Shown piece by piece: positions 2-37,117 of a stretch of DNA of 48,779 nt (position 1 is its first letter; each line of letters opens with the position of its first letter). The DNA lies in assembly GCA_903821875.1 (NCBI GenBank), contig CAIJMU010000143.1, positions 1-48,779 on the forward strand, written 5' to 3'. A model generated the notes under the pieces. The model was not told where the DNA came from. It saw only the letters and a list, made by a program, of their open reading frames with translations, and made no database searches. The stretch comes from an uncultured Spirochaetota bacterium. GTDB taxonomy: Bacteria > Spirochaetota > Spirochaetia > Treponematales > Rectinemataceae. The translations under genes and the position numbers were made by a program.

Positions 2-349
2 AGGATCATTGACTTCGCCTCAGAGGCATTCATTTCCTCTGCTGTGAGGGACTACAGCCGTATTGATATCATCCTTGCCGGCAATGAGCTTCATGCCATC
101 GAGATCAATGGCCAGCCTATGATACCTGACCGCTGGTTTCGGGAATGTGCAGCAAGTCAGGGTCTGGAAGACCACTACATATCGGCGATCTTTCTGGCTG
201 CCCTTTTGCGTACTGCCGCCAGCCGAGATTCGGATGTGGAGTTCCCCGACGCATTGTTCAGCGGCATTCCCGAGGCGGCCTGTCGAAGGTTGGCTGCCAC
301 AGCTGCAGGATCATCGGTGAGAGCAGAAGCCGGATATGCGACACGCTGA
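2..349 (+). CDS. ATP-grasp ligase, D-Ala-D-Ala ligase-like (C-terminal part, 5' end outside window)
   Basis: The reading frame is open from base 2 to the TGA at 347-349, so the gene begins upstream of the window. The visible 115 residues contain YSRIDIIL followed by HAIEINGQP (about bases 92-118). This matches the end of the ATP-grasp fold in D-alanine-D-alanine ligases, where R-x-D is followed by an E-x-N motif that binds the metal. The family makes a peptide or amide bond using ATP. The substrate cannot be read from this fragment, and it could be a Ddl-like enzyme acting on other amino acids. It overlaps the start of the next gene by 14 bases, indicating translational coupling. Confidence 0.72.
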   Translation, partial: RIIDFASEAFISSAVRDYSRIDIILAGNELHAIEINGQPMIPDRWFRECAASQGLEDHYISAIFLAALLRTAASRDSDVEFPDALFSGIPEAACRRLAATAAGSSVRAEAGYATR

Positions 350-2228
350 CCCCGCCACCGACCGCTTCGGATTCCTGCGTCTTCCTCCCGATGCACATAC
401 CCTTGGCGCGACCAACGCTGCAAGAGCTGTCGAGGCTTGTGGATTCAGGGTCCATCAAGCTGATGATGAAGTGAGGTCTGCGGCGAAGGAGCCTCTGGCA
501 GCGGAAAACGGCAGGCGCATTCTCTCCTGGATTCGAGGCAAGGGCATCACGATGCTTGCCCTGAGCTGGCGGCTGGATCCCGAACTGGGATCAGAGCTCT
601 TCGACCGATTTTATTACTTCCTCGACGCCACCGATCTCCTCGCGCGCTATGGCGGTCCGATACGTGGGGTTTTTTTCGCCGGTCTCCCATCCACCTGCGA
701 CCTGATCAGGGAACGACATCCCGACATCAGCGGTTTGTTCAGTGGCGAGGAAGATAGTGGCGAACTCCTCGATATTCTAGGAATCGCACGAGTCCTCTAC
801 CCGACAGAAATGCTTCAAAGCGTCGTCTATGACGAGGCAAGACTCGCTTTTGGCAAGGACCTGGTCCGCCGCGGTGATTTCGGCAGGATCGGGAAGATCG
901 ACCGTAGTGCCTCGCGACAATTCGGCAGGCGGGGAGACAGTCTTGCCTCGCGTCTCGCCCATGGCGAAGAGCATGGGCTTCCTCCGCTCGTTCGGGCGCA
1001 CGCAGGACCATGGTTGCCCGACAGGAAGGAAGCGCTCAAGCTATTCATTGGCTGGGCCAGAAGCCTTGGCGCGGGAGGCATGCTGGATGTGTTGTCAATC
1101 GGAAGTTCCCAATTAAGTCAATCGCGCTTTGGAGAGGACTGGGGTGAATCACCGAACGGAGGTGGCGTACCCGTAAACTCCGCTGAGGAGTATGCCGCCA
1201 TCTGGAATGCTGCACGGCCTATGCTGGTTCGCAGCTACTCAGGTGCCGGCAGCGCTGCCAGGCTCGTCCCTGTCTACGAGGCCAGTCTCGACATCGCATG
1301 GCACGCCCTGTCCTTCTGGTGGTTCAGTACGCTCGATGCGCGCGGTCCCCTCGGCGTTAGGGAGAACCTCGATGACCACTTTGCTGCCCTTCGTGCCATC
1401 GCAGCGACAGGCAAGCCTTTCGAGGCCAATGTGCCTCACCATTTCGCTTTCAGAGGAACAGATGATGCGAGCTATGTCGCAACGGGCTACCTTGCGGCCT
1501 GTGCTGCCAAGAAGGCCGGCATCCGTCTCTACATCCTCCAGGTGATGCTCCAGACACCTCGCTGGACCTGGGGTGTCCAGGATCTCGCCAAGGCCCGAGC
1601 CCTTCTGGCCATGACGAGGGACCTCCAGGACGGGACCTTCAAGGTCGTGCTCCAGCCGAGGGCCGGCCTCGACTACCTTTCCCGGGACACTACCCGGGCC
1701 AAGATCCAGCTGGCGGCAGCGACGGCACTGATGGATGACATCGAGCCTGGAAATTCAGGAAGTCCCTCGATCATACATGTTGTCAGCCATTCCGAAGCTA
1801 CTGGGCTCGCCGATCCTCCAGTTATTGATGAAAGCATTAGGATCACCAGGATGGCTCTCGACAAATGGCGAGAGTCACGCGCGAACGGTTCGGTCCCCGA
1901 TATGGGACTTGATGCCGAAGCCCGTGAACGAACACGGATTCTCCTTGCCGATGCTCGCGCCCTCGTGGCGGGCATCGAAAGCGCCATTCCCGATCTCTAT
2001 ACGCCAGAGGGATTTTACCTGGCCCTTGCTGCGGGTTTTTTCCCCCTACCCTGGCTTGCCGAACAGCGGGATATCTATCCACATGCGGCGGCTGGCCTCA
2101 CGGCATTTTCGGACGGGGGCATGACGTCAATCGATGAAGATGGCAAGCCCTTGGCGATGAAGGAACGCCTTGTGCGTGCCTCCGAGGCACTCCGCCTGAT
2201 CACGGGCGCCAAGGGTGGAGTGAATTGA
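336..2228 (+). CDS. Fused B12-binding and glutamate-mutase-like protein
   Basis: This is a 630-residue protein. Near the N-terminus DAHTLG (residues 19-24) fits the D-x-H-x-x-G motif that supplies the lower axial histidine to cobalamin in glutamate mutase, methylmalonyl-CoA mutase and methionine synthase. An S-W-R-L segment near residue 77 can serve as the S-x-L motif. The expected GG of the third motif is weak (VFFAGLP). The remainder resembles the catalytic E subunit of methylaspartate mutase; for example, the stretch VSHSEATGLADPPVIDESIR aligns by eye with the K-T-P-H-E-A-I-G-I-P region of GlmE. It would be a single-chain counterpart of the MutS plus MutE pair. Known relatives rearrange the carbon skeleton of an amino acid using adenosylcobalamin; the substrate here is unknown. 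The ATG at 336 overlaps the upstream gene. Confidence 0.68.
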   Translation: MRHADPATDRFGFLRLPPDAHTLGATNAARAVEACGFRVHQADDEVRSAAKEPLAAENGRRILSWIRGKGITMLALSWRLDPELGSELFDRFYYFLDATDLLARYGGPIRGVFFAGLPSTCDLIRERHPDISGLFSGEEDSGELLDILGIARVLYPTEMLQSVVYDEARLAFGKDLVRRGDFGRIGKIDRSASRQFGRRGDSLASRLAHGEEHGLPPLVRAHAGPWLPDRKEALKLFIGWARSLGAGGMLDVLSIGSSQLSQSRFGEDWGESPNGGGVPVNSAEEYAAIWNAARPMLVRSYSGAGSAARLVPVYEASLDIAWHALSFWWFSTLDARGPLGVRENLDDHFAALRAIAATGKPFEANVPHHFAFRGTDDASYVATGYLAACAAKKAGIRLYILQVMLQTPRWTWGVQDLAKARALLAMTRDLQDGTFKVVLQPRAGLDYLSRDTTRAKIQLAAATALMDDIEPGNSGSPSIIHVVSHSEATGLADPPVIDESIRITRMALDKWRESRANGSVPDMGLDAEARERTRILLADARALVAGIESAIPDLYTPEGFYLALAAGFFPLPWLAEQRDIYPHAAAGLTAFSDGGMTSIDEDGKPLAMKERLVRASEALRLITGAKGGVN

Positions 2229-2230
2229 AA

Positions 2231-3352
2231 ATGCATCGAAAGGAAATTGCCCAGGACTGCGCCGAACCTCGTTCGGTCTATTGTGTTGTGGGCGCCGGTA
2301 ACGGTGGCATGGCTATGGCGGCCCACCTCGGGGTCATGGGTTTCCGGGTGCGATTGTTCAATCGAACAGCCGAACACCTCGAGGGTGTCCGCTGGCATGG
2401 TGGTATCAAAGTCGAGGGGGAGATCGAGGGCTTTGGCCCCGTCGAGCTCGCGACTTCGTCAATGGAGGAAGCGCTCGAGGGTGTCGATATCGCCATGGTC
2501 GTCACACCATCGACAGCGCATCGCGGGCTCGCGAGCCTGATGGCTCCTCATCTTCGCGACAACCAGATCGTCGTCCTGAATCCAGGACGCACGGGGGGAG
2601 CCCTCGAGTTCCTCAAGCAGATCCGCCAGGACGGCCTCAGTGGAAAGCCCATTATCGCCGAAGCCCAGACCTTCCTCTATGCCTCACGCGCGCTTTCAAG
2701 GTACGAAGCCAGGATATTCCGAATCAAGAACGAGGTCCCTGTAGCTGCCCTGCCAGCCCACAAGACGGCCGAGGTACTCAGGCGTCTCGAACCAGCCTTC
2801 CCCTGGTTTTCACCAGGGGGGGATGTGCTGTCTACGAGCCTTGAGAATATTGGCGCGGTCTTCCATCCGGCACTCACCATCCTCAACGGAGGATGGATCG
2901 AGGCGACCCACGGAGATTTCGACTATTACTCTGATGGGATTACACCCTCGGTCGCCCTCGTCCTCGAACGTATCGATGCCGAACGGCTGCACGTCGCCCG
3001 CCTTCTCGGCGTCCGATCGCTGTCCTCGCGCGAGTGGCTCTACCAGAGCTACGACTCCCATGGAGACGACCTTTGTGAGGCTATCAAAAACACCGAGGCC
3101 TACCGGGGAATCCGCGCACCGGTCAATCTTCAGCACAGGTACATCTGGGAGGATGTTCCGATGAGCCTCGTCCCCTTGTCCTCCCTTGGGAAAGCGCTCG
3201 GTGCGCCCACGCCGACAATCGACCTGATAATAGAACTTGCTTCGATTCTTCACGGTCGCGACTATCGTGCCGAGGGACGAACAGTTGAGAGTCTCGGTCT
3301 CGCCGGACTCACTGTGAAGGAAATCCGGAAACTGGTAGACGAGGAAGCATGA
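2231..3352 (+). CDS. NAD(P)-dependent octopine/nopaline-type (opine) dehydrogenase
   Basis: An N-terminal Rossmann fold is marked by VGAGNGGMAMAAHL (about residues 18-31), followed by an acidic/basic loop (LFNRT) where NAD(P) binds. The length of about 373 residues and a helical C-terminal half fit the octopine/nopaline dehydrogenase family. These enzymes reductively join the amino group of an amino acid to a 2-oxo acid, or run the reverse reaction. The frame also allows a TTG start at 2225 overlapping the upstream stop. I prefer the ATG at 2231 because GGTGGAG at 2214-2220 is then 10 bases away rather than 4. It directly follows the mutase-like gene, so the two probably act on related amino acids. 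Confidence 0.82.
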   Translation: MHRKEIAQDCAEPRSVYCVVGAGNGGMAMAAHLGVMGFRVRLFNRTAEHLEGVRWHGGIKVEGEIEGFGPVELATSSMEEALEGVDIAMVVTPSTAHRGLASLMAPHLRDNQIVVLNPGRTGGALEFLKQIRQDGLSGKPIIAEAQTFLYASRALSRYEARIFRIKNEVPVAALPAHKTAEVLRRLEPAFPWFSPGGDVLSTSLENIGAVFHPALTILNGGWIEATHGDFDYYSDGITPSVALVLERIDAERLHVARLLGVRSLSSREWLYQSYDSHGDDLCEAIKNTEAYRGIRAPVNLQHRYIWEDVPMSLVPLSSLGKALGAPTPTIDLIIELASILHGRDYRAEGRTVESLGLAGLTVKEIRKLVDEEA

Positions 3353-3374
3353 CCTTACCCGAGGAGCACTGAAC

Positions 3375-4061
3375 ATGGAAATCTTAATTCAGACAATCAC
3401 CGCCCTATGGCTGAGCATCCCTCCGGCAGCACAGGCAGTACTAATTGTGGTCATGGGCTGGATTGCCGCCTTTCTCGTGAGATGGATCTTTTCCGGCCTT
3501 TTTTCGCGCCTGGGATTCAACCGCTTCTGCGACCGGGCAGGACTCAGCAAATTCCTTTTGACGGGCAATGTTTCCTACAAGCCTTCGAAGTTCCTCGGCG
3601 TCATTGCGTATTGGCTTATCTTGCTGCAGGTCTTTATCCTTGCCGCCAGGAGCCTCGACATCGGCCTGGTTAAATCGGTCGCAGACACAATCGCCCGGTT
3701 CCTGCCCTCATTTGTGGCCTTTGTGCTCATTTCCGTCACCGGACTTGTCATTGCGTCTTTCCTGGGAAACTTCACCCTGACGATTGCGAAGAATGCCGGG
3801 ATGCACGGAGCCCGAATGATTTCCCGGGCGGTGAAGTACGCCGTGATCGCATTGGCTCTCGTATCAGCGCTCCGCCAGCTTGGGGTAGCTGCTGGGGTGC
3901 TCGAGAATGTGGTTTCCATCAGCTTTGCCGCCTTGGCTTTCGGAGCAGCCCTTGCATTCGGACTAGGCTGCAAAGACCTGGCGAAAGCGGCAATGGAGAA
4001 ATTCCTCAGAAACATCAGGGAGAGCGAGCGGGAAGCGGTGGGAAAGGATATGGAAGGCTGA
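3375..4061 (+). CDS. Small MscS-type membrane protein (conserved TM-helix family)
   Basis: The 228-residue protein has about five hydrophobic segments (roughly residues 18-40, 70-92, 110-130, 148-168, 178-198). It ends with a Gly/Ala-rich helix, ALAFGAALAFGLGCKDLAKA, of the type that lines the pore of small mechanosensitive channels. The soluble beta domain of full MscS is absent, which fits the short conserved-TM-helix relatives. GAGGAG at 3361-3366 provides the ribosome binding site. It lies 22 bases after the opine dehydrogenase, so it is probably the last gene of that operon. It might release a product or respond to osmotic stress; that role is only inferred from position. Confidence 0.65.
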   Translation: MEILIQTITALWLSIPPAAQAVLIVVMGWIAAFLVRWIFSGLFSRLGFNRFCDRAGLSKFLLTGNVSYKPSKFLGVIAYWLILLQVFILAARSLDIGLVKSVADTIARFLPSFVAFVLISVTGLVIASFLGNFTLTIAKNAGMHGARMISRAVKYAVIALALVSALRQLGVAAGVLENVVSISFAALAFGAALAFGLGCKDLAKAAMEKFLRNIRESEREAVGKDMEG

Positions 4062-7063: not shown

Positions 7064-8647
7064 TCACCCACCGACTACCGTCACGCTTCCCCCCGCCGTC
7101 TCGCACAGCTCCCAGCTCAGGCGCTCTTCCCAGGTCTTTTGCCTGCCCGCGGGCGTGCGGTCGAAGACTACGAGCCAGGCATCGGCGCTGCGGTCGATCG
7201 TGTCGCGGTAGCGGATAACTTGTTCGAGACCCTCGGTCACGGTCGTGGTCCTGCCGTCGCCGGGATGAACGAGCTTGATCTCGATGATGGACCAGTGGCC
7301 GCTGTACAGCACGGCCAGATCCATGCGCCCGCGACCGGCGGCATATTCGCGCTCGATGCGGCCCCCGCCGTTTACCACGCGCTGCAGGAAGGCCATAAGC
7401 AGGAGGTGGGGAAAGGCCTTGGTGTAGTCGGCCTTCTCTTCCCAGATGTCAGCGTGCCTACGCCAGAAACGCTGGAACTCGTGGAAGAGGGCTTCCATGT
7501 CGAGCGTTCCGTCGGGCCGCTGCCAGCGGAACTCGGGCTCTGGAATGGCCAATTGGTACCTGTAGGACAGGACCCTGGCGATGGTTTCGCGGTAGATGGG
7601 ATTGGCAATGACCGGTGTGCCTTTTTCGACACGTATGAGCCCTAGGTCGAGGGTCAGGAGAAAGTCGTCGCCTGCGGCAAGGTCGGGATCGATCTCCCCG
7701 ATCATGATGGACTGTACGATGCGTTTAACTCGTGGATCCCGCAGTCGCTCGGCCAGGCTGTCCAAATGCACAGCCCGCTCGCTGATCAGGATCTCCCGTG
7801 CCTCCTCGATGTGCTCAACTCCGACGGGTTCGCCTTTGGAGCAAAGCTGCCAGACGCATTTTTTGCAGAGGTAGTTGACCAGCCAGGGCTGGCCTCGGGT
7901 GATCTCATAGATCAAGGCTAGAGCCTCGTCGCTGAAGACCTGGCCAGTCTCGTCGGTATGTTGGGACACCAGGCTGCGGACATCAGCGGCGGAAAAGGAA
8001 CTCAGGCTGGCTGAATCTTCCTTGATGTTGAAGGGGCTGCCGGGATTGAGGGAAACACCGTCCTTGCTGCGCATGAGGTAGTCGCGGAGGTCACGCATGC
8101 CCACCAAGGCCACGCTGACGGGGAACTGTCCCACGCCACGGGCTGCAAAACCCCCGCGAAGCTGCCGGAGGAAGCTCACCATAGCCTGGTCCTGGAGCAC
8201 ATCCACCTCGTCGAAGAGGACCACGAGGGGCTTGGGGGCGACGAGGGCTGCCCAGGCCTTGAGGATAGCCGACAGGGCGCTGGCGGGCTCGGCTTCAGGC
8301 AGCCCGCGGGCTTCAGGAAGCCCGGGGACAAGGGCGGGGCCGAGAAAGGCATCGGCGTATTCCCTGATCGCGGCCGAGATCGCAGGAATCGCATCTTTGG
8401 CGTCGGGGAACTCCTGGCAGCGCTCCACACTTACGTAGCAGGCAACAGCCTGCCCTTCGGCATTGAGTTTCCGCATCCAGGACTGAAGAAAGGTCGTCTT
8501 GCCGCTCTGCCTGGGCGCATGGAGGACCCAGTAGAGCTTGGACTCGACGTAGCGATCCAGCTGGGCGCGCACCAGGCGGGCTTCCGGCGGAAGCAGGTAG
8601 TGATCGTCCGGATTGCAGGGGCCGGTGGTGTTGAAAAAGCGCTTCAT
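7064..8647 (-). CDS. AAA-type ATPase fused to a PD-(D/E)XK nuclease-like domain
   Basis: The 527-residue protein has a Walker A site at APRQSGKTT (Lys50) and a Walker B site in PLVVLFDEVDVL (about residues 142-153), typical of the AAA-like/STAND ATPases often annotated as 'ATP-binding protein'. A winged-helix-like middle follows. The C-terminal 100 residues contain GRGRMDLAVLY followed by SIIEIKL, which fits the D-x(n)-E-x-K core of PD-(D/E)XK nucleases. No ribosome binding site precedes the ATG; instead a promoter ends just upstream, so the mRNA may be leaderless. Relatives occur in many copies in bacteria of varied lifestyle, and their role is unclear (possibly DNA-related or defence). Confidence 0.75.
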   Translation of the reverse strand: MKRFFNTTGPCNPDDHYLLPPEARLVRAQLDRYVESKLYWVLHAPRQSGKTTFLQSWMRKLNAEGQAVACYVSVERCQEFPDAKDAIPAISAAIREYADAFLGPALVPGLPEARGLPEAEPASALSAILKAWAALVAPKPLVVLFDEVDVLQDQAMVSFLRQLRGGFAARGVGQFPVSVALVGMRDLRDYLMRSKDGVSLNPGSPFNIKEDSASLSSFSAADVRSLVSQHTDETGQVFSDEALALIYEITRGQPWLVNYLCKKCVWQLCSKGEPVGVEHIEEAREILISERAVHLDSLAERLRDPRVKRIVQSIMIGEIDPDLAAGDDFLLTLDLGLIRVEKGTPVIANPIYRETIARVLSYRYQLAIPEPEFRWQRPDGTLDMEALFHEFQRFWRRHADIWEEKADYTKAFPHLLLMAFLQRVVNGGGRIEREYAAGRGRMDLAVLYSGHWSIIEIKLVHPGDGRTTTVTEGLEQVIRYRDTIDRSADAWLVVFDRTPAGRQKTWEERLSWELCETAGGSVTVVGG

Positions 8648-26722: not shown

Positions 26723-29700
26723 CTATTTCCTCAGTATTCCCACGATCGACAGGTCATCATACTGCTCATCCTCCCTGATGCCGCGGAAAAGGAAATAGTT
26801 GGGATCTTCCACGATCTCGTCCTTGCCTTCACGATCCTTCCTGCCAGTCTTGACCATTATGGATTCCTTCCTCCGGAACACCAGGGAGTACTGGTCGAAG
26901 AAGACCGACAGGAAAGCGTCCACCCTCCGGTCGACCATGATGGTCGCGTCGTCACCGGCGTTCCAGTCGTAGATCGAGAAGACCTTCCCGATTCCGAGGT
27001 AGGAGATCAGTCGCTCCTCCAGGGCGCCTGTGGCCTTGGTGAAATCGAAGCTCATCACCAGGTCGCGGTCGGTTTCGTGGTCGTGGCGGATGGTGAAGAC
27101 CTCGCGCCTGTCATAGGAGGCGATGAAGGCGTCGAGGCGCTCGGGTCCCAGGTGCTCGGCGTCGCCGGGGTCGTGGTGGAGGTCCTTGTGGTCCATGCCT
27201 GCGCAACCCGGCATTTCGGCGCACTGCCTGACGGCACCGCTTAGGTCGCGGAAGCGGTGGATGGGATCCTCCATGCCGTCAGAGTACAAAAGGAGGACGT
27301 CGCCTCGCTCGAGCTTGCGCCGGTAGCTGTAGAAGCCGGTTCCCCCAAGCTCCATCATGTCCTGCGGGATCAGCCCCGTGGCCGGCGAGGATTTCCTCAA
27401 GTCCGGCTGGAAGGGCTCGGAGACGGTCGTGCCGGTGGAGGCCTTCCAGACGCGGTACATGTTGTCGCCCGCATGGCAGAGCTGGCAGCTGCCATCGGAG
27501 AGGTTGATGACACCGAGGGTGAAGGCCGCGAACTTGCCCTTGTAGTCGCGTGCGACGAGGAAGTCGTTGACCCGGTAGGTGAGCTTTACCAGCTCGTAGT
27601 CGGGTACCCGCTGCAGGCGCTGCCACTCGTTGAAATGGTTGATGACGATCGTACCGACCTGTACCATGATGAAGGCGGCGGCGACGTCCTTGCCGGAGAC
27701 GTCGCACTTGATGAAGTAATAGTACTTGCCTTCGGCATCGAGCTTCTCGAAGTTCCAGTAGTCTCCCGATACCTTTTTGGCGCCCTTGTAGTAGCCGTAC
27801 ATCTCGTGGTACTTGCCGCTCTCCTTGGCGATGGACAATGTGATTGCCCCCGCCTTGAGCAGGGGGATGAAGTGGTTCTGGATGTCGGAGCCCTCGATGA
27901 GGGCGTGCGACTGCTTGGCTCCCTCCACGAGCTCGACGGCGAGGGCCTTGGCGGCCATGGCAAGGGTCGCGATCTCGTCCCGGCCGCGCACGACTATGTC
28001 GAAGCCCGCCAGCGAGGCCTTGTCTTCTGTCGTACGCATTGTGTCTATCTTGGCGACGATCTCGCGGATCGGCCTGACGATCGACCGGGCGAGGAAGAAG
28101 GCACCCAGGATGCCGCCAAGGAGGACCAAGGCGGCGATCTGCGCGGTGCTCAGGATGAGGGCCGTCGTCCGGGCGGCGACGTCGGCGACGATGAGGGCGG
28201 TGTTGGCCGAGAGCCGGACCATCCCCCGGTAGAGTATCGAGTCTCCGGGGCGGTACTCGAGGATGGGCTTGAAGAAGAGGTAGGAGGAGGCGGTCTGCGA
28301 CAGGACCGTGGGGTCGAAGGCAGGGACCGAATCGACAGCCTCGTCGGAGATGGCGCGGAGCCGGTCCCTGATGGTGCGGTCGATCTCGTCGAGGCTTGCG
28401 TTGAGCCTCTTCCTGTCCTCGTCGCCGGCTGAGCCAGGGGGGAGGGCCGTCTTCTGCTTCTGGAGCTCGGCCTTGCGGTCGAGGTCTCCCTTGATGGCCT
28501 CCGCCGACTTCGTCTCGAGTTCCCGGGCCATGTCGCCGACCCGGGCGGCCAGGGGGTCGACCGTCAGGTTCAGGGGCGAGACGCCGAGCTCGAGCCGCGA
28601 CGAGCTGATCTTGCCTGCGATGGCGGGATCGTTGGTCGAGAAGACGACGTCGCGTCCGGCGACCTTCGGATCCTGGGAATTGCCGGTAATTGTTATGTAT
28701 TCGGCCCCGGGGAGGGCCTTGACCTGTGTGGGAAGGAATCCGAGCTGGGTAACCGCGCCTTCGCGGTCGAGGAAGAAGCGTCCTCCCTGGGCCGCAGACT
28801 CCAGGAGGACCCTGGCTGCGTCCTCGAGGCCCCTGGCCAGGGCCGCGCTCTGGTTGCGCACCATGGACACGCCAAGGGAGAAGGCGACCAGGAAGACGAC
28901 CATGAGGATGAGGATGGCGATGAAGAAGGTGAAACGCACCGCGAGGTGGCCGCGATTCGTCCTGGCCTTCCTGATGGCCTTGTCCTTGACAGCGTCTGGC
29001 ATTGGACCTCCGTCCACGAGGGCGAGCACCTGGAGCCGCACCGACCGGGCGTCGCCGAGGGTGGCGACTGCCTGCCAGAGCGACAGGAAGATTCCGAGGC
29101 CGAAGAAGATCCAGGCCGCGGCGACTATGAGATCGTAGATCGAATAACGAGAGGAGGGCTGGGGCGCGAGGGTCCAGGAGGGACGGTACTCGTATTCGAT
29201 GCCGTACTTCAAGGTTCCGCTCGCATCGAAGGTCACACGGCGCGGGGCCCAGTACATCCCGCGCAGGGGGTGCTGGATGCCGAGCCAGTACTCGCCCTCG
29301 GGGATGTCCTCGACGGCGACCTCCTCGATGAGGCGGTTCGTGGAGATGCTGAAGCCGCCTGTGGCCAGTTCGCGACGGAAGTCCCAGGGCTCGGCCCGCG
29401 ACTTCGTAAGGACTACGCGCGTCACCGGACCCTGGTCGGTGAAGCCGCGGCCGACGATGGACAGGCTCCGCCTCCCGATGAGGTCCGTGGTCTGGCGTAT
29501 GTCGGTAATCAGGGTGAAAGGAACCTGTTTGTCCGCGCGGAACAGGACGGTGGAGATGTCGGAGACGTTTGCCGTGCCGTCTATGGCCGCTACGGAAAGG
29601 AGCCAATACCCATCATCGATATTGTCGAGGACCAGGAGGGGCGAGTGCCCCTGGATGGCCGGGGGCGGCCGAGGAAGTCCGTAGCGCTCGATGATCGCCG

Positions 29701-31666
29701 CCTCGATCGGGGACTGCCCTTCGATGACGCTGCGGCCGGGACGCCGGGCCTCCTTCGTGATGCCCGCAAGGTCGAGGGGCCCGACGAGGGTCCAGGTGTA
29801 GCCCTGGGTATCGTCGGCCAGGGGCGGCAGCCAGGCGATGTCCGCGCTGTTCGAAATGATGCTGCCCCCGGCGTCGAGCGGGGGGGGAAGGATGATGGGG
29901 GGGTCGGGCGGGGTGCGGTCGCGGAACCAGGTCAGGGTGACCGGCACCGACCTGTTGCCCGCGTTGTCCTCAACCGAGACTGCCAGGGCCCAGGCCCCGT
30001 CTTCAGGGGCACGAAGGGTGAGCGAGCCGGGGGAACCGTTGATGACCGTCCCCTTTGACCAGAGCCCGTCGCGTCCGGGGACGCCCCCCGGGTAGCCCTC
30101 GAGCATGGCATCGCCGGTCCGCGTCCAGAGGCTCACGACCTTCCCTATGCCTGCGGAGGTCTGGGGCATGCGAAGCACGACGGTCACCACCTCGTCCCGG
30201 GAGCGGCGGCCCGCCACATAGTTGGGAACCGATATGGCCGGGGGATCGACGTGGAGTACGGGTTCGAGGAGGAAGATGCGCTGCCTGACAAGGGGCGCGT
30301 TCCTCGTTCCGACCTGGTCGTCATATTGCCATAATGCGTACAATCTTCCGGCCATCGTGACGGCGTATGCGAAGGAGGTGGCGCCCCGCCGGGCCGGATC
30401 GGATAGTGCGGTGAAGCCCATCGCCTCGGGGGCGACCCAGGTGCCTGCATCGTTCATGCGCCGCCGCCAGACCTCGTTGGCGGCGACCTGGTCCTGGATG
30501 TAGACCGCAGTGGTGCGCCCGGCATCGTTGAGGAAATCGGCGAGGATGAAGGAGGAGGCGGGGTCCGAGATGTAGAGGAGGTCCTTTGTTTCCAGCCTTC
30601 CGCCGGCGTCGAGGCTGGAGGTGACAATGCGGACGGGATTGTCCCGGTTGTCCTCCTCCCGCTTCCTTGTGTCCCTCCGCTGCCATGCGATGCGCAGTCT
30701 GCCTCCGGATTCGATGAGCCGCGGAGCCTGGTTGTCGAAATATCGGTGGTTCGGTGTCTTGCTGGCTGCCTGGCTGCCCGGCTCCTGGTACTCGGTCAGG
30801 GGCAGGGCCTTCGACCAGGTTACCCCCCCGTCCTCGGAGGCCTTGGAGTAGAGCGCGTAGTGGGAAGCCGCGTCTTCGGTCCCGTTGACCTGGTGCTGGA
30901 ACACCACGAGATCCCTGCTGCCGTAGGCGAGCGAGTAGGGCAGGTAGTTGTTCACCAGACCCTCGTCAGGCGCGACAAGGGCTGATGGGGAGGACCAGGT
31001 CGATCCGTCTTCGCTGTGCGCGACCTGGATCGAGTTCGTGTTGTCGAGCGAAAAGCCTTTTTCGGTTCCACTCGCCGCCGGGGTGCCGGACGCAGCCGGG
31101 CTTCCCGCTGCAGCCGCCGCCTCTCCCTGGCCTGCCGGGCCTGTCGACGTGACGCCCGCCAAAGGCTGGGTCACGAAGAGGAGCCATCCGCCCCTGGCGT
31201 TCGGGAAGAGCCTCGGTGCGACCACTGTCGAGTCCGATCGGACAGTTCCTGCTCGGGCGAAGCTGGCTCCCGCGTCGTGGGAAAGGAGGATTGCGATCTC
31301 GCTGCCTGACATGGCGATGGCGAGCCCGATCGTGCCATTGCGGGCTACTGCCACCGAGTAGAGGATCGGAACGGCGCCCCGGAAATCCAGGGGGCCAGCC
31401 ACGCGCGAGGTAATCCACTTGCCCTCGACCCTGCGCGAACGGACTATCCAGGCCTGGCCCTGCGCCTTTGTATCGGAGGCTTCCTGCCAGAACAGGAGGG
31501 GCTCGTCGCCGGACTGGATGAAGGTGGGGGCGATGCCTCGACCCACGGGACGCGGCGGTTCCGATCGATCCGAAGCCGCGCTGGCAGGACCCGAGGTCGC
31601 CACGAGGGCGAGGAGGGCGACGACGAGGGCTGACAGCGGAAGGAGGGTGCGGAGGCCTTGACGCAT
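26723..31666 (-). CDS. Giant sensor phosphatase: sialidase-like propeller, membrane/HAMP, SpoIIE-type PP2C
   Basis: A 1647-residue protein. A signal peptide (about 1-31) precedes an extracytoplasmic beta-propeller with three Asp boxes, SHDAGASF (~128), SEDGSTW (~217) and SEDGGVTW (~276), as in BNR/sialidase repeats. Fibronectin/Ig-like segments follow. Membrane helices lie at about 840-862, 910-932 and 1172-1193; a sensor-like domain fills the gap between the last two, and a HAMP domain (ARSIVRPIREIV) follows the third. The PP2C/SpoIIE domain shows SGDYWNF (~1300), CDVSGKDVAA, LLLYSDGMEDP (~1460) and the terminal YDDLSIVGIL, the metal-binding Asp set. About 170 residues separate the last two motifs, more than usual. 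Relatives dephosphorylate anti-sigma-factor antagonists. Start chosen at the ATG at 31666; an ATG at 31780 is possible. Confidence 0.85.
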   Translation of the reverse strand: MRQGLRTLLPLSALVVALLALVATSGPASAASDRSEPPRPVGRGIAPTFIQSGDEPLLFWQEASDTKAQGQAWIVRSRRVEGKWITSRVAGPLDFRGAVPILYSVAVARNGTIGLAIAMSGSEIAILLSHDAGASFARAGTVRSDSTVVAPRLFPNARGGWLLFVTQPLAGVTSTGPAGQGEAAAAAGSPAASGTPAASGTEKGFSLDNTNSIQVAHSEDGSTWSSPSALVAPDEGLVNNYLPYSLAYGSRDLVVFQHQVNGTEDAASHYALYSKASEDGGVTWSKALPLTEYQEPGSQAASKTPNHRYFDNQAPRLIESGGRLRIAWQRRDTRKREEDNRDNPVRIVTSSLDAGGRLETKDLLYISDPASSFILADFLNDAGRTTAVYIQDQVAANEVWRRRMNDAGTWVAPEAMGFTALSDPARRGATSFAYAVTMAGRLYALWQYDDQVGTRNAPLVRQRIFLLEPVLHVDPPAISVPNYVAGRRSRDEVVTVVLRMPQTSAGIGKVVSLWTRTGDAMLEGYPGGVPGRDGLWSKGTVINGSPGSLTLRAPEDGAWALAVSVEDNAGNRSVPVTLTWFRDRTPPDPPIILPPPLDAGGSIISNSADIAWLPPLADDTQGYTWTLVGPLDLAGITKEARRPGRSVIEGQSPIEAAIIERYGLPRPPPAIQGHSPLLVLDNIDDGYWLLSVAAIDGTANVSDISTVLFRADKQVPFTLITDIRQTTDLIGRRSLSIVGRGFTDQGPVTRVVLTKSRAEPWDFRRELATGGFSISTNRLIEEVAVEDIPEGEYWLGIQHPLRGMYWAPRRVTFDASGTLKYGIEYEYRPSWTLAPQPSSRYSIYDLIVAAAWIFFGLGIFLSLWQAVATLGDARSVRLQVLALVDGGPMPDAVKDKAIRKARTNRGHLAVRFTFFIAILILMVVFLVAFSLGVSMVRNQSAALARGLEDAARVLLESAAQGGRFFLDREGAVTQLGFLPTQVKALPGAEYITITGNSQDPKVAGRDVVFSTNDPAIAGKISSSRLELGVSPLNLTVDPLAARVGDMARELETKSAEAIKGDLDRKAELQKQKTALPPGSAGDEDRKRLNASLDEIDRTIRDRLRAISDEAVDSVPAFDPTVLSQTASSYLFFKPILEYRPGDSILYRGMVRLSANTALIVADVAARTTALILSTAQIAALVLLGGILGAFFLARSIVRPIREIVAKIDTMRTTEDKASLAGFDIVVRGRDEIATLAMAAKALAVELVEGAKQSHALIEGSDIQNHFIPLLKAGAITLSIAKESGKYHEMYGYYKGAKKVSGDYWNFEKLDAEGKYYYFIKCDVSGKDVAAAFIMVQVGTIVINHFNEWQRLQRVPDYELVKLTYRVNDFLVARDYKGKFAAFTLGVINLSDGSCQLCHAGDNMYRVWKASTGTTVSEPFQPDLRKSSPATGLIPQDMMELGGTGFYSYRRKLERGDVLLLYSDGMEDPIHRFRDLSGAVRQCAEMPGCAGMDHKDLHHDPGDAEHLGPERLDAFIASYDRREVFTIRHDHETDRDLVMSFDFTKATGALEERLISYLGIGKVFSIYDWNAGDDATIMVDRRVDAFLSVFFDQYSLVFRRKESIMVKTGRKDREGKDEIVEDPNYFLFRGIREDEQYDDLSIVGILRK

Positions 31667-31795
31667 CAGTGTCCTTGTTCTGCCCTCAGCATCGGGTCGG
31701 GGCTGCACGAATTGTGTTCTCGCTTGGCTGGGTGGCTGAGAATGGCATCCGGCAGGGCGGGCATGCAAGGCAAATCTCATGGTCTCCGTCCGTCC

Positions 31796-34700
31796 CTAAT
31801 AGTTCAGCTGGTTGAGCTGCTGGTCGAGGAGGAGGACGTCCCGCGTCTTTGTGCCCTCGCTCTTGAGCAGGGCGTTGAGGGTGTCCCTCGCCTGGTTGTA
31901 CTGGCCCTGCGAGAAATAGAGCCGTGCCTCGTTGAGATTCTGCGAATCCGTGAGGCCGAGGACCTTCTCAGGCCCCCCTCCCTTCAAGGTCTGGATGTTG
32001 AGTGAGACAGTCTGGGCGTCGCGGTCGTTCGGATCGAGTTCCATGGCCTGGGCGAGGAGCTGCTCTGCCCTCGTGAGGTCGACCGCCCGTCCTGTCTTGA
32101 TGAGTTGCCGGGCCTGTTCCGCGAGCCTGAGCGATTGTGCCTTCTGCGATGCCGTGGGTTCGGGGCGGCGTTTTCCGATGGCTATCTCTGCCTGGACGAG
32201 GAGTCGGCCAAGCCGGCTGTTGTTCGGTTCGATGTGAGAGAGGTCGGCGATGCGCGCGTAGCCTGCCGGCGGGTTCTTCTTGAGGAGGGCTGCCGCGTCG
32301 TCGATGCGGTTCGGGAGGGAGGACTGGAAGTCGGCCTCGTTGGTGGCTTTCAGGATCTGGAGGGAGAGGAAGCCTGCATCTTCGTTGAGGGGGAAGGTCT
32401 GTGTCACGTTGGCAACGATGGCGAGGGCCGAGGCGAAGGTCTGCCTCGCATCGGTCCTCTTGCCGGATTTCTGCAGCGTGATGCCCTTTTCGTAGGTGAG
32501 GCGAGCAAGCGACAGGTATTGGGTCATCTCCCGGTACAGCGGGTCGTTCTGCCGGATTATGCGGCTGTTGCCGGTGTCGCGCGCCATTCGCACGAGTGAG
32601 AGCCAGAAGTCGAGGGGCGGATAGGTCAGGCTGGGGTAGCGCTCCTTCCAGAGCGTATTGGCCTTGGACAGGGAATTGTAGGCATCGTCGAAGTTGGCAA
32701 GGCTGTATGAATGCTGGGCGTCTGCCAGGAGGCGGTCCACCTCGAGCTTGGCGTACTGGTCGCGCGCCTCGTTGATGGCCCGGCCGATGGCGGCATAGCG
32801 CGTGACTCCCTCGTCCCAGACCTGCCGGTCGAAGTCGCTGCCCAGAGCGTCCAGGAAGCGGCTGTAGCCGACCTCCCTGGCATTCGTGGCTTCCTCGAGG
32901 GCATTGCGTGCCGTCTGCCGCCTGGCGAGGGTGGAGAGGCCGCTGACCGATCCTGCGAGGGTAGCTTCTGCTTCGGTGAAGGACTTGCGGGCTCCTGCCA
33001 GGGCAGTGGCAGCGGCCTTTTTGCGGGCTGCCGCAGTGGCGAGCAGGGTGCTTCTCTGCCCCTGGATCTCGGCCGTGGATTTTCCCAGGACTTCGTTCCG
33101 TGCGGCGATCGCGGCCACCGAGTCATCGCCGCGGATCCAGTCAGCCTCCTGCCTGATCCTGCCTCCGAGGCCCGTGGTCGACTGGGCCAGGACAGAGAGC
33201 CCGAGCTCCTCGTCGGCGAGGATCGCTGCCGCCTGGCTCGGGAAGGAATCAAGGCGGCCTTGGCGCTCAGGGACGGGAGATGGAGAGCCGGCCATCAGCG
33301 CCGCAGCCTTCCCTATCATGTCGAACCGTTCCTTGTACTCCTTCTCGAGGGCTGCCACCTCAAGATCGAAACCGAAGGCTACGAGGGCTACCTCATCGCC
33401 ACGGGCCTGGCTCATGGAGGCTGCGAGCCGGCTGCTCCAGAGCTCGTGTTCGGCAGCAGGCCAGTCAGCCGGCTGCGAAAGCGAGGCGAGTACGGCCCCG
33501 GTCCTGTCGGCCAGTGCCTTGAGCTTTCCCGATCGCGTCCCTTCGGTCTCGAGGGCTGCTTCGAGGGAACGGATTCCTCCCCGGAACAAGGAGATGTTCC
33601 TGAGCGCGTCTGCGAGGAGCATCCCCGACGCCTCGCCTGTCTCGAATTCGGCGACCTTGCCCGTGAGGACGGTGAGGCTGTCCCTGAGCTCCGCCAGCTT
33701 TGAAAGCGCGGGGGAGATGCCGTTCTCGAAATCCAGCAGGCTCAGGTTGGCGGCCTTCCCCGCAATCAGCGTCGTCTCACGCGCTCCAAGGCCCGAGTCC
33801 CCGGCCCTGTCTCCCAGCCTTCCCCAGAGGGCTTCGATCCTCTGCGCGGCTGCGACCAGACCTCCAGCCCTGTCCTGTTCCCCCTTCGAGGCAGCCCAGA
33901 GGCCTTCGTCCCAGGCTGCTGCAGCCGCCTTCCATGCTTCCTCGATGGCGGGGGTCTGTCGCGACTCCACGCCTTCGATGCCTCGTGCCAGCTGGTAGAA
34001 GGCCAGTCCCGCGATTCCCTCGGAGAGATCGCGCTCGGCCTCGGGCCGCCAGAGCGGGTCGGTCTGCTCGTCGCGGGTAGCGTAGTCGGAGACCATCTGC
34101 CTTCCTCGCAGGAAGAACCCCGCGTAGGTAAGGTAGGAGAAATTGAGTGGCGATCGGGCCCGCCCGTCGCTGTGTTCCTTCGGCAGGGCCTGGAATATCT
34201 CGGAGAGCCTCGTATAGGTCCCAACCAGCGATCTACGGTCCACATCGAGGCGAGAGAAGGCTTCGAGGGCGACAGCAAGGGCCTGTGCCGTGAGCCCTGG
34301 ATCGCCTTTAGAGAAGGCCTCCCCGAGGGCCGCCATGGCCGCTTCGAAGGCCGGCCCGCTTCCTCCCGGCTCCTCGAGCGCGCTCGACCGGGCCGTAGCC
34401 TCGTTCATGAGGCTGCGCATGAGGGTGACGATGCTCTTCGAGGATTCTATCTGCTTCTGGCCGCCGAAATCCTTGAGCACCAGGCTGCGGGCTGTCCCAT
34501 TCGCCTCGGTTTCGTACTGCCAGCCGAAGAAGCCCCGCATGGGCTTCCCGTTCGCGTCGGTCCGTATGATCTTCCCCGCCTCGTCGAGGAACTTCGTGCC
34601 CACCGCGCCGTCAGCCCCAATTACGACAATCTGCCCCGCGTCGGCGTCCCTGCGGTCGAGGATATCGTAGCCCGCATCGACGAACTCCCGCCAGTACAGG

Positions 34701-35560
34701 GCAGGGAGCTCCGATTCCGGAGAGAAGGCTGCCACGTAATCGGCCACCGCGCCTGCGAGGTCCCCCGCTGCGGATTTCCCGAAGGCGGAGCTCATCGTCG
34801 ACTTGAGGAGACCGAGGTTTTTCACCCTCGACTGGACCTCGAGGAGGACCGTCAGGATGTCCTTGTTGGCGTAGGGGTCAAGGGCCCTGAGCTTGTCGAT
34901 TTTCGCCGCGATAGCCGGATCGGAGCCATTGCTGGCGAGGGCGCGATCCCTGATCTCCGTCGCGAGCTTGGTGTACTGCTCCCTGATCACGAAGATGTTC
35001 TTTACCTTCTCGTTGGCCTGGTCGAAGCGCTCGGGGTACTTGGCGCTGAAGGACTGGAGGGAGATGAGGGCCTGGTTGAAGTTCTTGCGCCTGATGTTCG
35101 CGTCTGCGTTGTTCATGTAGGCCTGCGACAGCAGGCGGTCGACAGTGTCGCGGTTCGACCGGTCGCCCGCCGCAAGCGTGTCGAGCAGGGGTTCAAGGAG
35201 GGCTATGGCCTTGTCGAAGGTTGCCGAGGCAGCTCCGTCGAGGTCATTGGCGTTCTGCATATGGGCATCGGTGGGATCCCGGGACAGCGAGCGTTCCTTG
35301 TTGGCTCCGCGGACCATCCCTGCAGCCTTGTCGAGGTAGGCCTGCCCCAGGATGATGGTTGCGTCTGTCTTGACTGTCTTGGTCAGCTCTGTCGCAAGGA
35401 GGGGCTCGAGGGCGGCTGTCACGAGGTCGTTCTTGTGGGCCTGGAGGTCTTTTTTCGCCTGGACGACCACGGGATTCTTCACGGCTGGTGCAGCCGCCAG
35501 GCCAGGAGGCTGCGCGAATGCGAAGACACACAGGAAGAAGGCCCCTAGTGGGCCTCTCAA
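31796..35560 (-). CDS. Very large secreted helical/TPR-like protein
   Basis: About 1254 residues, exported (RGPLGAFFLCVFAFAQPPGL signal). The body is helical and Ala/Leu-rich. TPR-like helix pairs are visible near the N-terminus (DATIILGQAYLDKAAG, YMNNADANIRRKNFNQALIS) and especially at the C-terminus (LYFSQGQYNQARDTLNALLK). A long coiled-coil-like Ala/Gln stretch lies between. No enzyme motif. The frame is open to a GTG at 35710, but a TATAGT box at 35681-35676 and the signal peptide argue for a later start; TTG 35560 is the best candidate, though its spacing to AGGA is short. It ends 129 bases before the sensor phosphatase gene and is probably co-transcribed with it, perhaps as its envelope partner. 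Confidence 0.7.
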   Translation of the reverse strand: MRGPLGAFFLCVFAFAQPPGLAAAPAVKNPVVVQAKKDLQAHKNDLVTAALEPLLATELTKTVKTDATIILGQAYLDKAAGMVRGANKERSLSRDPTDAHMQNANDLDGAASATFDKAIALLEPLLDTLAAGDRSNRDTVDRLLSQAYMNNADANIRRKNFNQALISLQSFSAKYPERFDQANEKVKNIFVIREQYTKLATEIRDRALASNGSDPAIAAKIDKLRALDPYANKDILTVLLEVQSRVKNLGLLKSTMSSAFGKSAAGDLAGAVADYVAAFSPESELPALYWREFVDAGYDILDRRDADAGQIVVIGADGAVGTKFLDEAGKIIRTDANGKPMRGFFGWQYETEANGTARSLVLKDFGGQKQIESSKSIVTLMRSLMNEATARSSALEEPGGSGPAFEAAMAALGEAFSKGDPGLTAQALAVALEAFSRLDVDRRSLVGTYTRLSEIFQALPKEHSDGRARSPLNFSYLTYAGFFLRGRQMVSDYATRDEQTDPLWRPEAERDLSEGIAGLAFYQLARGIEGVESRQTPAIEEAWKAAAAAWDEGLWAASKGEQDRAGGLVAAAQRIEALWGRLGDRAGDSGLGARETTLIAGKAANLSLLDFENGISPALSKLAELRDSLTVLTGKVAEFETGEASGMLLADALRNISLFRGGIRSLEAALETEGTRSGKLKALADRTGAVLASLSQPADWPAAEHELWSSRLAASMSQARGDEVALVAFGFDLEVAALEKEYKERFDMIGKAAALMAGSPSPVPERQGRLDSFPSQAAAILADEELGLSVLAQSTTGLGGRIRQEADWIRGDDSVAAIAARNEVLGKSTAEIQGQRSTLLATAAARKKAAATALAGARKSFTEAEATLAGSVSGLSTLARRQTARNALEEATNAREVGYSRFLDALGSDFDRQVWDEGVTRYAAIGRAINEARDQYAKLEVDRLLADAQHSYSLANFDDAYNSLSKANTLWKERYPSLTYPPLDFWLSLVRMARDTGNSRIIRQNDPLYREMTQYLSLARLTYEKGITLQKSGKRTDARQTFASALAIVANVTQTFPLNEDAGFLSLQILKATNEADFQSSLPNRIDDAAALLKKNPPAGYARIADLSHIEPNNSRLGRLLVQAEIAIGKRRPEPTASQKAQSLRLAEQARQLIKTGRAVDLTRAEQLLAQAMELDPNDRDAQTVSLNIQTLKGGGPEKVLGLTDSQNLNEARLYFSQGQYNQARDTLNALLKSEGTKTRDVLLLDQQLNQLNY

Positions 35561-35679
35561 TTCCTGTGCCGCGCCTCTTTGGCGTTGTCCGCGTCGTATC
35601 GGGATCAGGGTCGTGCGCCTCGGGTGTTCGCGCTTCCTTCCGGTCGTGAAGGGTCTCGCGATCCGTACAGAAGATACTA

Positions 35680-35698
35680 TACCGCCAAACAGGCGGTA
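35680..35698. promoter_or_regulatory. Inverted repeat in the divergent promoter region
   Basis: TACCGCC-AAACA-GGCGGTA is a perfect seven-base inverted repeat. It overlaps the TATAGT (minus-strand 35681-35676) -10-like box of the TPR/phosphatase unit and lies about 160 bases before the UPF0164 start. It could be a repressor site or a leader hairpin. Confidence 0.4.
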
Positions 35699-35854
35699 CG
35701 AACCGGGCACTCAGATGCCCACTCTGTAGTTTCGGTATTTTCTTTTGCCTATTTTAAGGAATATCACGTGCCGACAAGGAGCTACGAGGGCTGCCCTGAG
35801 CACCATAACTTGGATATCCAGCCTCTCCACGATACATTGATTGTGAGCACCACC

Positions 35855-37117
35855 ATGATGTCCACGCAGCTCCGCGCCCTTCTTGGCGCCCTTGCCCTGC
35901 TCGCCCTGCCTCTCGCAGGCGCCGCCCAACCTACCTCGGACATCTATAGTTTTATTTCGAGTTACTTCAACCCCGATCCCAACGCCGGCCTCACCGCCTT
36001 CCGCTCCCTCCACATCCCCATGGGAGGCCTCGCCGAGGGCATGGGCATGGCGTACACGGCTGCTGCCAGGGATTCCTCCTACTTCGAGGCCAATCCCGCA
36101 GCCTCCGCCATCATCGACCAGACCGAACTCGGCGTCTTCCACAACAACTGGATCTCCGACACCAAGATCGAGAGCGCGGTCTACACGCTGCGGGCCGGGA
36201 ACCTTGGTTTCGGCGTCATGGGAAAGTGGCTGTACCTCCCCTTTGTCGGCGTGGACGACTTCGCCAACAGCATGGGAACGGGTTACTACTCCGAGGCCAT
36301 CGCTGCCTTCAACGCCTCGTATAATTTTTTCCAGGGTTACAATTTCACCGGGATAGCCCTCGGTGCCACCGGCAAGCTGGCCTACCGCTCCGTTCCTACG
36401 ACCCTGGCCAAAGCCGCTGGCAACTCGGGCCTCGGGCTCATGGTCGATGGCGGAGCCCTCATCCGCTTCAACTTCCTGAAGCTCTACTCGTCCCGGACAA
36501 AGAACTTTGCTGTCGGCCTTGCCCTCAAGAACGTCGGGCCTCCAGTCCTCAACGAGCCACTCCCGACAGTCGCGAGCCTCGGCCTTTCCTGGTCCCCCTT
36601 CCGTTTCATTACCTTTTCCGGAGACGTGGCGAAGCCCGTCAATCTCATGGACCTCTCCAAATCGGAGCGGCCTATCTACGCCGCCGGCTTCGCGATCTCG
36701 ATGACCGACGCCTTCGGGCTCCAGGGCGGCATTCTCATGAAGGGCAGCAATCCCAGGATCAGCGTGGGTTCGATGATCCTCCTCGACCTCGTAAAGTTGA
36801 ACATCAACTACACCCTCGACCTCACAACCCAGTTCACCCCTCTCAACCGCATCTCGATCCAGACAGCCTTCGTGCTCGGAGACCTTGGCCGGTCTGCGCT
36901 TGCCAAGAAGGTGGACAGGCTCTATCTTGAGGGCCTGGGCGAGTACGGAAAGGGCAACGCCGACGCCGCGATTACGCTCTGGAACCAGGCCTTGGCAGCC
37001 GATCCGACCTTCGACCCCGCCCGCGAGAGCCTGCACGCGGCGGAGAACTCAAAGAAACTGAAGGCTGCCATGGATGCCATCGGTACCATGAACCTGAGTC
37101 CCAAGCCTGGCAATTGA
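35855..37117 (+). CDS. UPF0164 family outer-membrane protein (FadL/PorV-like)
   Basis: 420 residues from the ATG at 35855, starting with a clear signal peptide (LRALLGALALLALPLAGAAQ). GGLAEGMGMAYTAAARDSSYFEANPAAS matches the spirochaete UPF0164 family (FadL-like beta-barrels; cited by two overlapping parts). The rest alternates Gly/aromatic beta-strands, and a TPR-like helix pair closes the C-terminus (LYLEGLGEYGKGNADAAITL). The protein probably forms an outer-membrane channel for hydrophobic compounds or assists export. An in-frame GTG at 35768 behind AAGGA would add 29 residues before the signal, so I reject it. Its neighbours include a SpoIIE-type phosphatase; in Treponema pallidum, from memory, UPF0164 genes also sit beside one (TP0854-0859 region). 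Confidence 0.83.
   Translation: MMSTQLRALLGALALLALPLAGAAQPTSDIYSFISSYFNPDPNAGLTAFRSLHIPMGGLAEGMGMAYTAAARDSSYFEANPAASAIIDQTELGVFHNNWISDTKIESAVYTLRAGNLGFGVMGKWLYLPFVGVDDFANSMGTGYYSEAIAAFNASYNFFQGYNFTGIALGATGKLAYRSVPTTLAKAAGNSGLGLMVDGGALIRFNFLKLYSSRTKNFAVGLALKNVGPPVLNEPLPTVASLGLSWSPFRFITFSGDVAKPVNLMDLSKSERPIYAAGFAISMTDAFGLQGGILMKGSNPRISVGSMILLDLVKLNINYTLDLTTQFTPLNRISIQTAFVLGDLGRSALAKKVDRLYLEGLGEYGKGNADAAITLWNQALAADPTFDPARESLHAAENSKKLKAAMDAIGTMNLSPKPGN

Follow-up and report, generated by a model that had tools for sequence, protein, structure and literature searches.

An opine dehydrogenase paired with a predicted single-chain B12 mutase-like protein in an uncultured spirochaete and other bacteria

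The contig CAIJMU010000143.1 from an uncultured Spirochaetota bacterium (family Rectinemataceae), 48,779 nucleotides long and referred to here as the window, starts with four genes that we call LIG, MUT, ODH and MSC. They encode a Ddl-like ATP-grasp ligase, a protein resembling adenosylcobalamin (AdoCbl) mutases, an opine dehydrogenase and a membrane protein. The operon is real, in that the gene set is conserved and not a product of chance; its universal core consists of MUT and ODH, while the ligase partner varies by lineage. As far as the open-access literature searched shows, the gene set is undescribed. The kinds of enzyme are known in themselves, but MUT represents a new family of proteins with an AdoCbl-mutase fold, whose partners are opine dehydrogenases of the acidic type. 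We propose, with a probability of roughly one half, that MUT, ODH and a lineage-specific ligase form a biosynthetic module.

In this module, MUT would act as an AdoCbl radical mutase on an acidic amino acid, the likeliest being glutamate or a closely related compound, and would shift a glycyl-type group so that a branched amino acid, for instance 3-methylaspartate, results. An acidic amino acid, most likely this product of MUT, would then be coupled reductively by ODH, through its amine, with an alpha-keto acid (pyruvate is the probable one, and NADPH the reductant), which gives an N-(1-carboxyalkyl) opine. A ligase that uses ATP would finally form an amide on one carboxylate, the candidates being LIG in the window and a PylC/LAL-like ATP-grasp enzyme in the capsule loci of Bacteroidota, where the product is probably joined by an amide bond, as a substituent, to an amino sugar of a surface polysaccharide. 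MSC may release the small product. The domain make-up, fold, invariant residues, ODH signature and gene linkage were computed, and we infer the adenosyl form of the cofactor, the substrates, the order of the steps, the product, the target of the amide and the role of MSC.

Distribution of the MUT-ODH pair and the residue signature of ODH

Full-length homologues of MUT with at least 38% identity were found in 80 loci, and none was found in viral contigs or plasmids. When the presence of ODH beside MUT was scored by tblastn over 85 loci (two of which, L003 and L023, seem to be one contig), ODH adjoined MUT in 81 of them, on either side and in most loci upstream. Three of the exceptions (L035, L063 and L088) are cut at a contig end, and L085 alone lacks an ODH. 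According to the titles of the records, the loci with the pair belong to Spirochaetota, Bacteroidota, Bacillota, Armatimonadota, KSB1, Raymondbacteria, Aminicenantes, PVC, Deltaproteobacteria, Gracilibacteria and SAR86. About ten bacterial phyla thus carry the pair, and MUT, with a length of about 620 residues, is common in rumen and gut Bacteroidales. Among 198 genomes from the class of the host, six of the eight that contain a close ODH (at least 390 bits) also contain a near-full-length MUT.

The spirochaete form of the locus consists of LIG, MUT and ODH, mostly together with MSC. L019, L020, L024 and L147 are among the loci with the full order LIG-MUT-ODH-MSC, and the three families that the original prediction had joined into a pathway thus co-occur in other genomes; LIG is located downstream or in convergent orientation in L005, L006 and L118. 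The Bacteroidota form has the order ATP-grasp-ODH-MUT, in which the ATP-grasp protein is PylC/LAL-like, and is accompanied by genes for DegT aminotransferases, sugar transferases, glycosyltransferases and flippases. A capsule or O-antigen setting is common around the pair, in particular in Bacteroidota, and a locus similar to the Bacteroidota form, with an ATP-grasp gene downstream of MUT, is present in the complete genome G364 from the class of the host. Neighbours of the asparagine synthase type occur in L012, L015, L026, L027 and L086, and many Firmicutes loci contain ODH-MUT alone. An ATP-grasp or asparagine synthase gene is located within 4 kb in 43 of the 60 flanked loci; a ligase as a universal partner was rejected, since the other 17 have neither nearby. 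The density of ATP-grasp genes was 0.147 per kb inside 2.5 kb versus 0.023 per kb outside, a comparison that is biased, as the seeds were drawn from the neighbours, and that was not used as proof.

Two further neighbours were seen in Firmicutes. A gene for a prolyl oligopeptidase (S9) is located two places before MUT, upstream of ODH, in L053, L056 and L074. A small gene lies directly 3' of MUT in L072, L079, L080 and L083, and the copy in L072, the one that was tested, encodes an aminoacyl-tRNA editing protein (PF04073), which perhaps keeps tRNAs from being charged with an unusual amino acid.

ODH matches the opine dehydrogenase family PF02317 at 4.5e-47. It had been described as an octopine-type dehydrogenase, which holds for the family; in profile searches its best match is 1BG6, an N-(1-D-carboxyethyl)-L-norvaline dehydrogenase (E 1.5e-111), to which it is nearer than to the scallop octopine dehydrogenase (E 4.4e-26). 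The catalytic histidine, H202 in 1BG6 and H214 in the window ODH, is kept in 81 of 82 MUT-linked ODHs. At positions 111 and 198 of 1BG6, the window protein has R122 and G210, and its cofactor loop contains N46-R47-T48. The Arg111/Gly198 combination was identified in 78 of the 82 MUT-linked ODHs versus 1 of 17 unlinked Spirochaete ODHs (Fisher p 7e-14, a value that ignores shared ancestry). The octopine-type dehydrogenase beside a MutL-fused relative of MUT in L117, described below, was placed in the unlinked group and carries Arg/Gly. The combination is also kept in an ODH of only 30% identity that adjoins MUT in L146 (G364), and the ODHs of the two Clostridiaceae loci L037 and L038 have Arg/Ser.

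A 2024 study showed that metagenomic hot-spring opine dehydrogenases (mODHs) with Arg111/Gly198 prefer L-Asp and L-Glu, together with pyruvate and NADPH, that swapping residues 111 and 198 by mutagenesis switches the preference between Phe and Asp, and that ArODH (1BG6), which has Ala111/Asn198, prefers hydrophobic amino acids (PMC10787698). The window ODH belongs to the same family and has Arg111/Gly198 and the N-R-T loop as in the mODH changes, in which it differs from ArODH; the passages on the mODHs mention no mutase partner. Judging from these residues, the MUT-linked ODHs are predicted to be tuned to acidic amino acids. An ODH with the acidic signature adjoins MSC and a DapB-like gene in L115 (2149-4752; G072:C27), and no MUT was found in genome G072.

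The genes could also be neighbours without a joint pathway that are held together by chance or shared transfer. While the ODH and MSC in G072, where MUT was not found, would fit such an explanation, we consider it highly improbable, as the pair occurs in many phyla and ODH may precede or follow MUT, all but one of the loci without an ODH are cut by contig ends, and the ODH signature tracks the linkage to MUT.

Domains and fold of MUT

The window MUT has no sequence match in Pfam, NCBIfam or the PDB, and searches of PDB sequences with the single sequence and with a profile returned only chance matches to phosphoribosyl pyrophosphate synthetases. Among 47 homologues (alignment A1), 21 match the B12-binding family PF02310 weakly at E<=10, the best at 3.2e-4. 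The alignment contains about 80 invariant columns that are spread across both domains of the protein. Residues 19-24 of MUT read D-A-H-T-L-G, and D19, H21 and G24 of this motif, as well as S77, are invariant in all 47 homologues.

The AlphaFold2 model of MUT has a mean predicted local distance difference test (pLDDT) score of 92.4, and its top match in Foldseek is subunit E of glutamate mutase (GlmE), at 9.3e-12. In VIA-align, residues 195-614 of MUT align to residues 40-439 of GlmE (1cb7_B) with a Z-score of 26.4 over 376 residues and a root-mean-square deviation of 3.3, followed by lysine 5,6-aminomutase (Z 25.5), ornithine aminomutase (Z 23.4) and methylmalonyl-CoA mutase (Z 18.9). Since the first two scores differ by less than 1, lysine 5,6-aminomutase is tied with GlmE as the nearest fold. 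The N-terminal part was barely tested in VIA-align, and residues 1-163 were therefore folded separately, which yielded a pLDDT of 94.1. The best Foldseek matches to this domain are the B12 domains of a MeaB-target mutase, methylmalonyl-CoA mutase and 2-hydroxyisobutyryl-CoA mutase, and B12-dependent regulators were also matched. The models support a mutase-like protein of the S+E type, in which a predicted cobalamin domain and a TIM barrel are joined in one chain, as the original prediction, which noted the D-x-H-x-x-G motif, had suggested.

The lysine 5,6- and D-ornithine 4,5-aminomutases require pyridoxal phosphate, which a lysine in their cobalamin domain holds. Although these folds are nearly as near as that of GlmE, no lysine is found among the invariant columns in residues 1-210 of MUT, which argues against a pyridoxal phosphate-dependent aminomutase. 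The acyl-CoA mutases (MCM/ICM/HCM) are weaker fold matches, with Z-scores of 18.9 and below.

A distant relative of MUT in L117 (G105), with approximately 32% identity, consists of a MUT-like barrel fused to MutL (PF13941, 3.3e-80) and follows an opine dehydrogenase gene. MutL is an accessory or partner protein of glutamate mutase systems. In this locus (L117:671-8824; G105:C161), the fusion gene adjoins genes for a D-glutamate cyclase-like protein, the octopine-type dehydrogenase and an MttB-family methyltransferase, and the locus is possibly a catabolic cousin of the MUT-ODH system.

MUT might instead bind cobalamin without mutase activity, as a sensor or a dead relative, in which case its linkage to ODH would reflect regulation. 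No recognised mutase family model matches MUT, some known proteins with B12 domains are light sensors, and MerR-type B12 proteins are among the fold matches to the N-terminal domain. We nevertheless judge a role without catalysis to be very unlikely in view of the invariant columns through both domains, the GlmE-like barrel and the MutL-fused relative. The host genome (G000) encodes several B12-binding proteins and a methylmalonyl-CoA mutase-like protein (C44), which makes the use of AdoCbl by the host plausible, and MUT would use the adenosyl form of cobalamin.

Operon layout and the remaining window

The four open reading frames of the operon were confirmed on the plus strand (Table 1), and their overlapping or tight spacing, noted in the original prediction, is borne out: LIG and MUT overlap by 14 bases and MUT and ODH by 4 bases, and a gap of 22 bases separates ODH from MSC, which fits one operon. 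As the window represents the entire contig (G000:C143), LIG is truncated. An upstream extension had been recommended, and the 5' part of LIG was located at the end of another contig from the same genome (G000:C77:1-729, minus strand), which has 10 bases in common with the start of C143. This part adjoins a divergent gene at positions 944-1855 of C77, named LysR-type from its sequence. In L147, from another genus of the same family, a divergent LysR-type gene is followed by LIG-MUT-ODH-MSC in unbroken order, which indicates that the operon probably starts with LIG; we therefore consider LIG most likely to be its first gene. At the gathering score, scans of the window and of 12 related loci for Rfam RNAs recovered one tRNA and nothing else, and thus no cobalamin riboswitch.

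Table 1. Genes and domains of the operon at the start of the window.
Feature	Position	Strand	Description
LIG	2..349	+	Ddl-like ATP-grasp ligase, truncated by the contig end; ~115 C-terminal aa present
MUT	336..2228	+	Single-chain AdoCbl mutase-like protein, 630 aa
MUT, predicted cobalamin-binding domain	336..785	+	~residues 1-150, DxHxxG at residues 19-24
MUT, predicted TIM-barrel catalytic domain	933..2168	+	~residues 200-611; invariant R220, R299, H323, E363, R373, R442, E487
ODH	2225..3352	+	375 aa; 1BG6-type opine dehydrogenase, Arg122/Gly210 (= 1BG6 111/198), His214
MSC	3375..4061	+	228 aa; membrane protein, conserved transmembrane helix of mechanosensitive channels

The LIG fragment matches the Ddl model weakly and is 47% identical to the C-terminus of the ligase in L024, and its full-length relatives match Ddl models and PF07478. 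The relative in L014 scores 72 bits, below the curated Ddl cut-off of 243. LIG is thus assigned by sequence to a wider Ddl-like family and is not called a D-alanine--D-alanine ligase. The proposal of a Ddl-like ligase stands in this respect, but the protein is mainly a partner in Spirochaetes and falls outside the universal core. MSC matches the transmembrane helix family PF05552 at 2.3e-8 and NF033912 below its cut-off, but not the MscS beta-domain PF00924, so that only part of its description as an MscS-type protein is retained. It adjoins ODH or MUT in 16 loci.

Elsewhere in the window, two very long frames of 1685 and 1304 amino acids are arranged in tandem, together with a frame of 441 amino acids, at 26723-37036 on the minus strand. 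The longest has a SpoIIE phosphatase domain near its C-terminus, and neither of the remaining frames matches a Pfam model at 1e-8. A frame of 527 amino acids at 7064-8647 (minus strand), which by eye is ATPase-like with a C-terminal nuclease-like part, also has no Pfam match at 1e-8.

The proposed pathway and its alternatives

The biosynthetic module is favoured by the fold and motif of MUT, its near-obligate linkage to ODH, the MutL fusion in L117, the ODH signature that tracks the linkage even in the divergent ODH of L146, the nearby amide-forming genes and the capsule or O-antigen setting. According to a review, an alanopine-substituted amino sugar occurs in the O-antigen of Providencia alcalifaciens O35, and carboxyethyllysine in that of P. 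rustigianii O14 (PMC10609480). As opines linked to polysaccharides are thus known in O-antigens, a capsule substituent would be a natural end product in Bacteroidota. The likeness lies in an opine that is amide-linked to an amino sugar and in the polysaccharide gene setting, but the module proposed here would supply an acidic opine, perhaps a branched one. We know of no B12 mutase in the alanopine O-antigen system. The biosynthesis of pyrrolysine (PylB, PylC and PylD) follows the same logic of a carbon-skeleton mutase, an ATP-grasp ligase and a dehydrogenase, and the ATP-grasp proteins of the capsule loci give weak matches to the PylC model, with scores that fall far short of its cut-off. This is an analogy only: PylB is a radical SAM enzyme and not a B12 enzyme, PylD is not an opine dehydrogenase, and the products are unrelated as far as known.

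Several results weigh against the module as proposed. Most loci in Firmicutes and some in Spirochaetes have no ligase gene next to the pair. MutL was not found in the host genome, and neither was GlmE. Profile-profile alignments of MUT to GlmE, whole or with the barrel only, were not significant, and the relation between the two therefore rests on predicted structure. The pocket also appears to differ. In GlmE, R66 and R149 together with E171 hold the glycyl part of the substrate, while R100 together with Y177 holds the acrylate part (PMC10947579); the GlmE sequences retrieved for comparison have the same residue numbering. The strands of the MUT barrel were identified in order as beta1 LVRAHA, beta2 VLSIGSSQL, beta3 LVRSY, beta4 AWHALSFWW and beta8 IIHVVSHSEA. 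By strand order and collinear ranges, which is not a residue-level superposition, R66, R149 and E330 of GlmE correspond to R220, R299 and E487 of MUT, all invariant. By the same strand order, there is no arginine at the position of R100 (the L260 region), E171 is replaced by the invariant H323, and the position of Y177 is probably changed. Because Arg100 and Glu171 appear to be replaced, glutamate itself may not be the substrate of MUT. If the mapping is right, MUT would still grip an alpha-amino-acid-like migrating group and bind the other half of the substrate differently. The comparison with GlmE recommended in the original prediction thus recovers the fold and, by strand order, the upper arginine claw, but not Arg100 and Glu171.

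Nor does the window MUT match PF06368 (Met_asp_mut_E). The 47 members match 14 families, none of which is PF06368, and in G000 this model finds just a weak match to a methylmalonyl-CoA mutase-like gene. Compared with glutamate mutase (GlmS/GlmE; 1CB7, 6H9E), MUT shares the nearest barrel fold, a DxHxxG cobalamin domain and probably the R66 and R149 positions, but it is a single chain with the cobalamin domain first, and it pairs with an opine dehydrogenase whereas glutamate mutase pairs with methylaspartase. By the tests run here, MUT is probably not a glutamate mutase, and its substrate pocket appears to be no simple match to that of GlmE. The dehydrogenase adds a further difficulty, as the turnover of Asp by the mODHs is just 0.04 per s per mM in the study cited above (PMC10787698). 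At this very low efficiency, Asp is probably not the natural substrate of the mODHs, and the product of the glutamate mutase-like partner, for example 3-methylaspartate, would be an obvious candidate.

The apparent change in the pocket bears on a reverse order of the steps, in which ODH first makes the N-carboxyalkyl amino acid and MUT rearranges the opine itself. An invariant histidine in place of Glu171, which contacts the amine in GlmE, would fit a substrate whose amine is substituted and which has one more carboxylate, and slightly favours this order, as do the invariant cationic residues R373, R442, H368, H369 and K360 in the barrel, the lack of conservation at R100 and the location of ODH before MUT in most loci. 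However, the residue equivalences come from strand order, gene order is a weak guide, and to our knowledge no AdoCbl mutase acts on an opine. A mutase step on the opine therefore seems rather doubtful to us.

The pair could also serve breakdown, with ODH oxidising an opine to an amino acid and a keto acid and MUT feeding the metabolism of glutamate or methylaspartate. In L037 (1-8663) and L038 (3376-11352), ODH-MUT is located between urocanase/formiminotransferase and amidohydrolase genes, a histidine-degradation setting that would fit breakdown and is a point against biosynthesis, and the D-glutamate cyclase-like and MttB-family neighbours in L117 also speak for breakdown. We regard a catabolic role as quite unlikely, however, as ATP-dependent ligase and polysaccharide genes adjoin the pair in most other loci and no methylaspartate ammonia-lyase was seen beside it.

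Returning to the biosynthetic module, we tentatively suggest, as a possibility below even odds, that MUT is a new AdoCbl isomerase with a reaction of its own on a non-glutamate acidic amino acid or opine, and that MUT and ODH together make up a widespread cassette of two enzymes that produces branched acidic opines, which gut Bacteroidales would attach to their capsules. Few AdoCbl-dependent isomerase reactions are known. An open-access literature search, with most subscription journals outside its scope, found no paper joining B12 mutase, opine dehydrogenase and ligase genes, and no curated family model found here covers the MUT family. The tie between MUT and ODH provides a direct, assayable substrate hypothesis and could explain the poor use of Asp by mODH-type enzymes. 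The pair points to a hitherto undescribed route to unusual amino-acid building blocks and, if the proposal is true, the supply of vitamin B12 would be tied to the chemistry of surface polysaccharides in gut bacteria.

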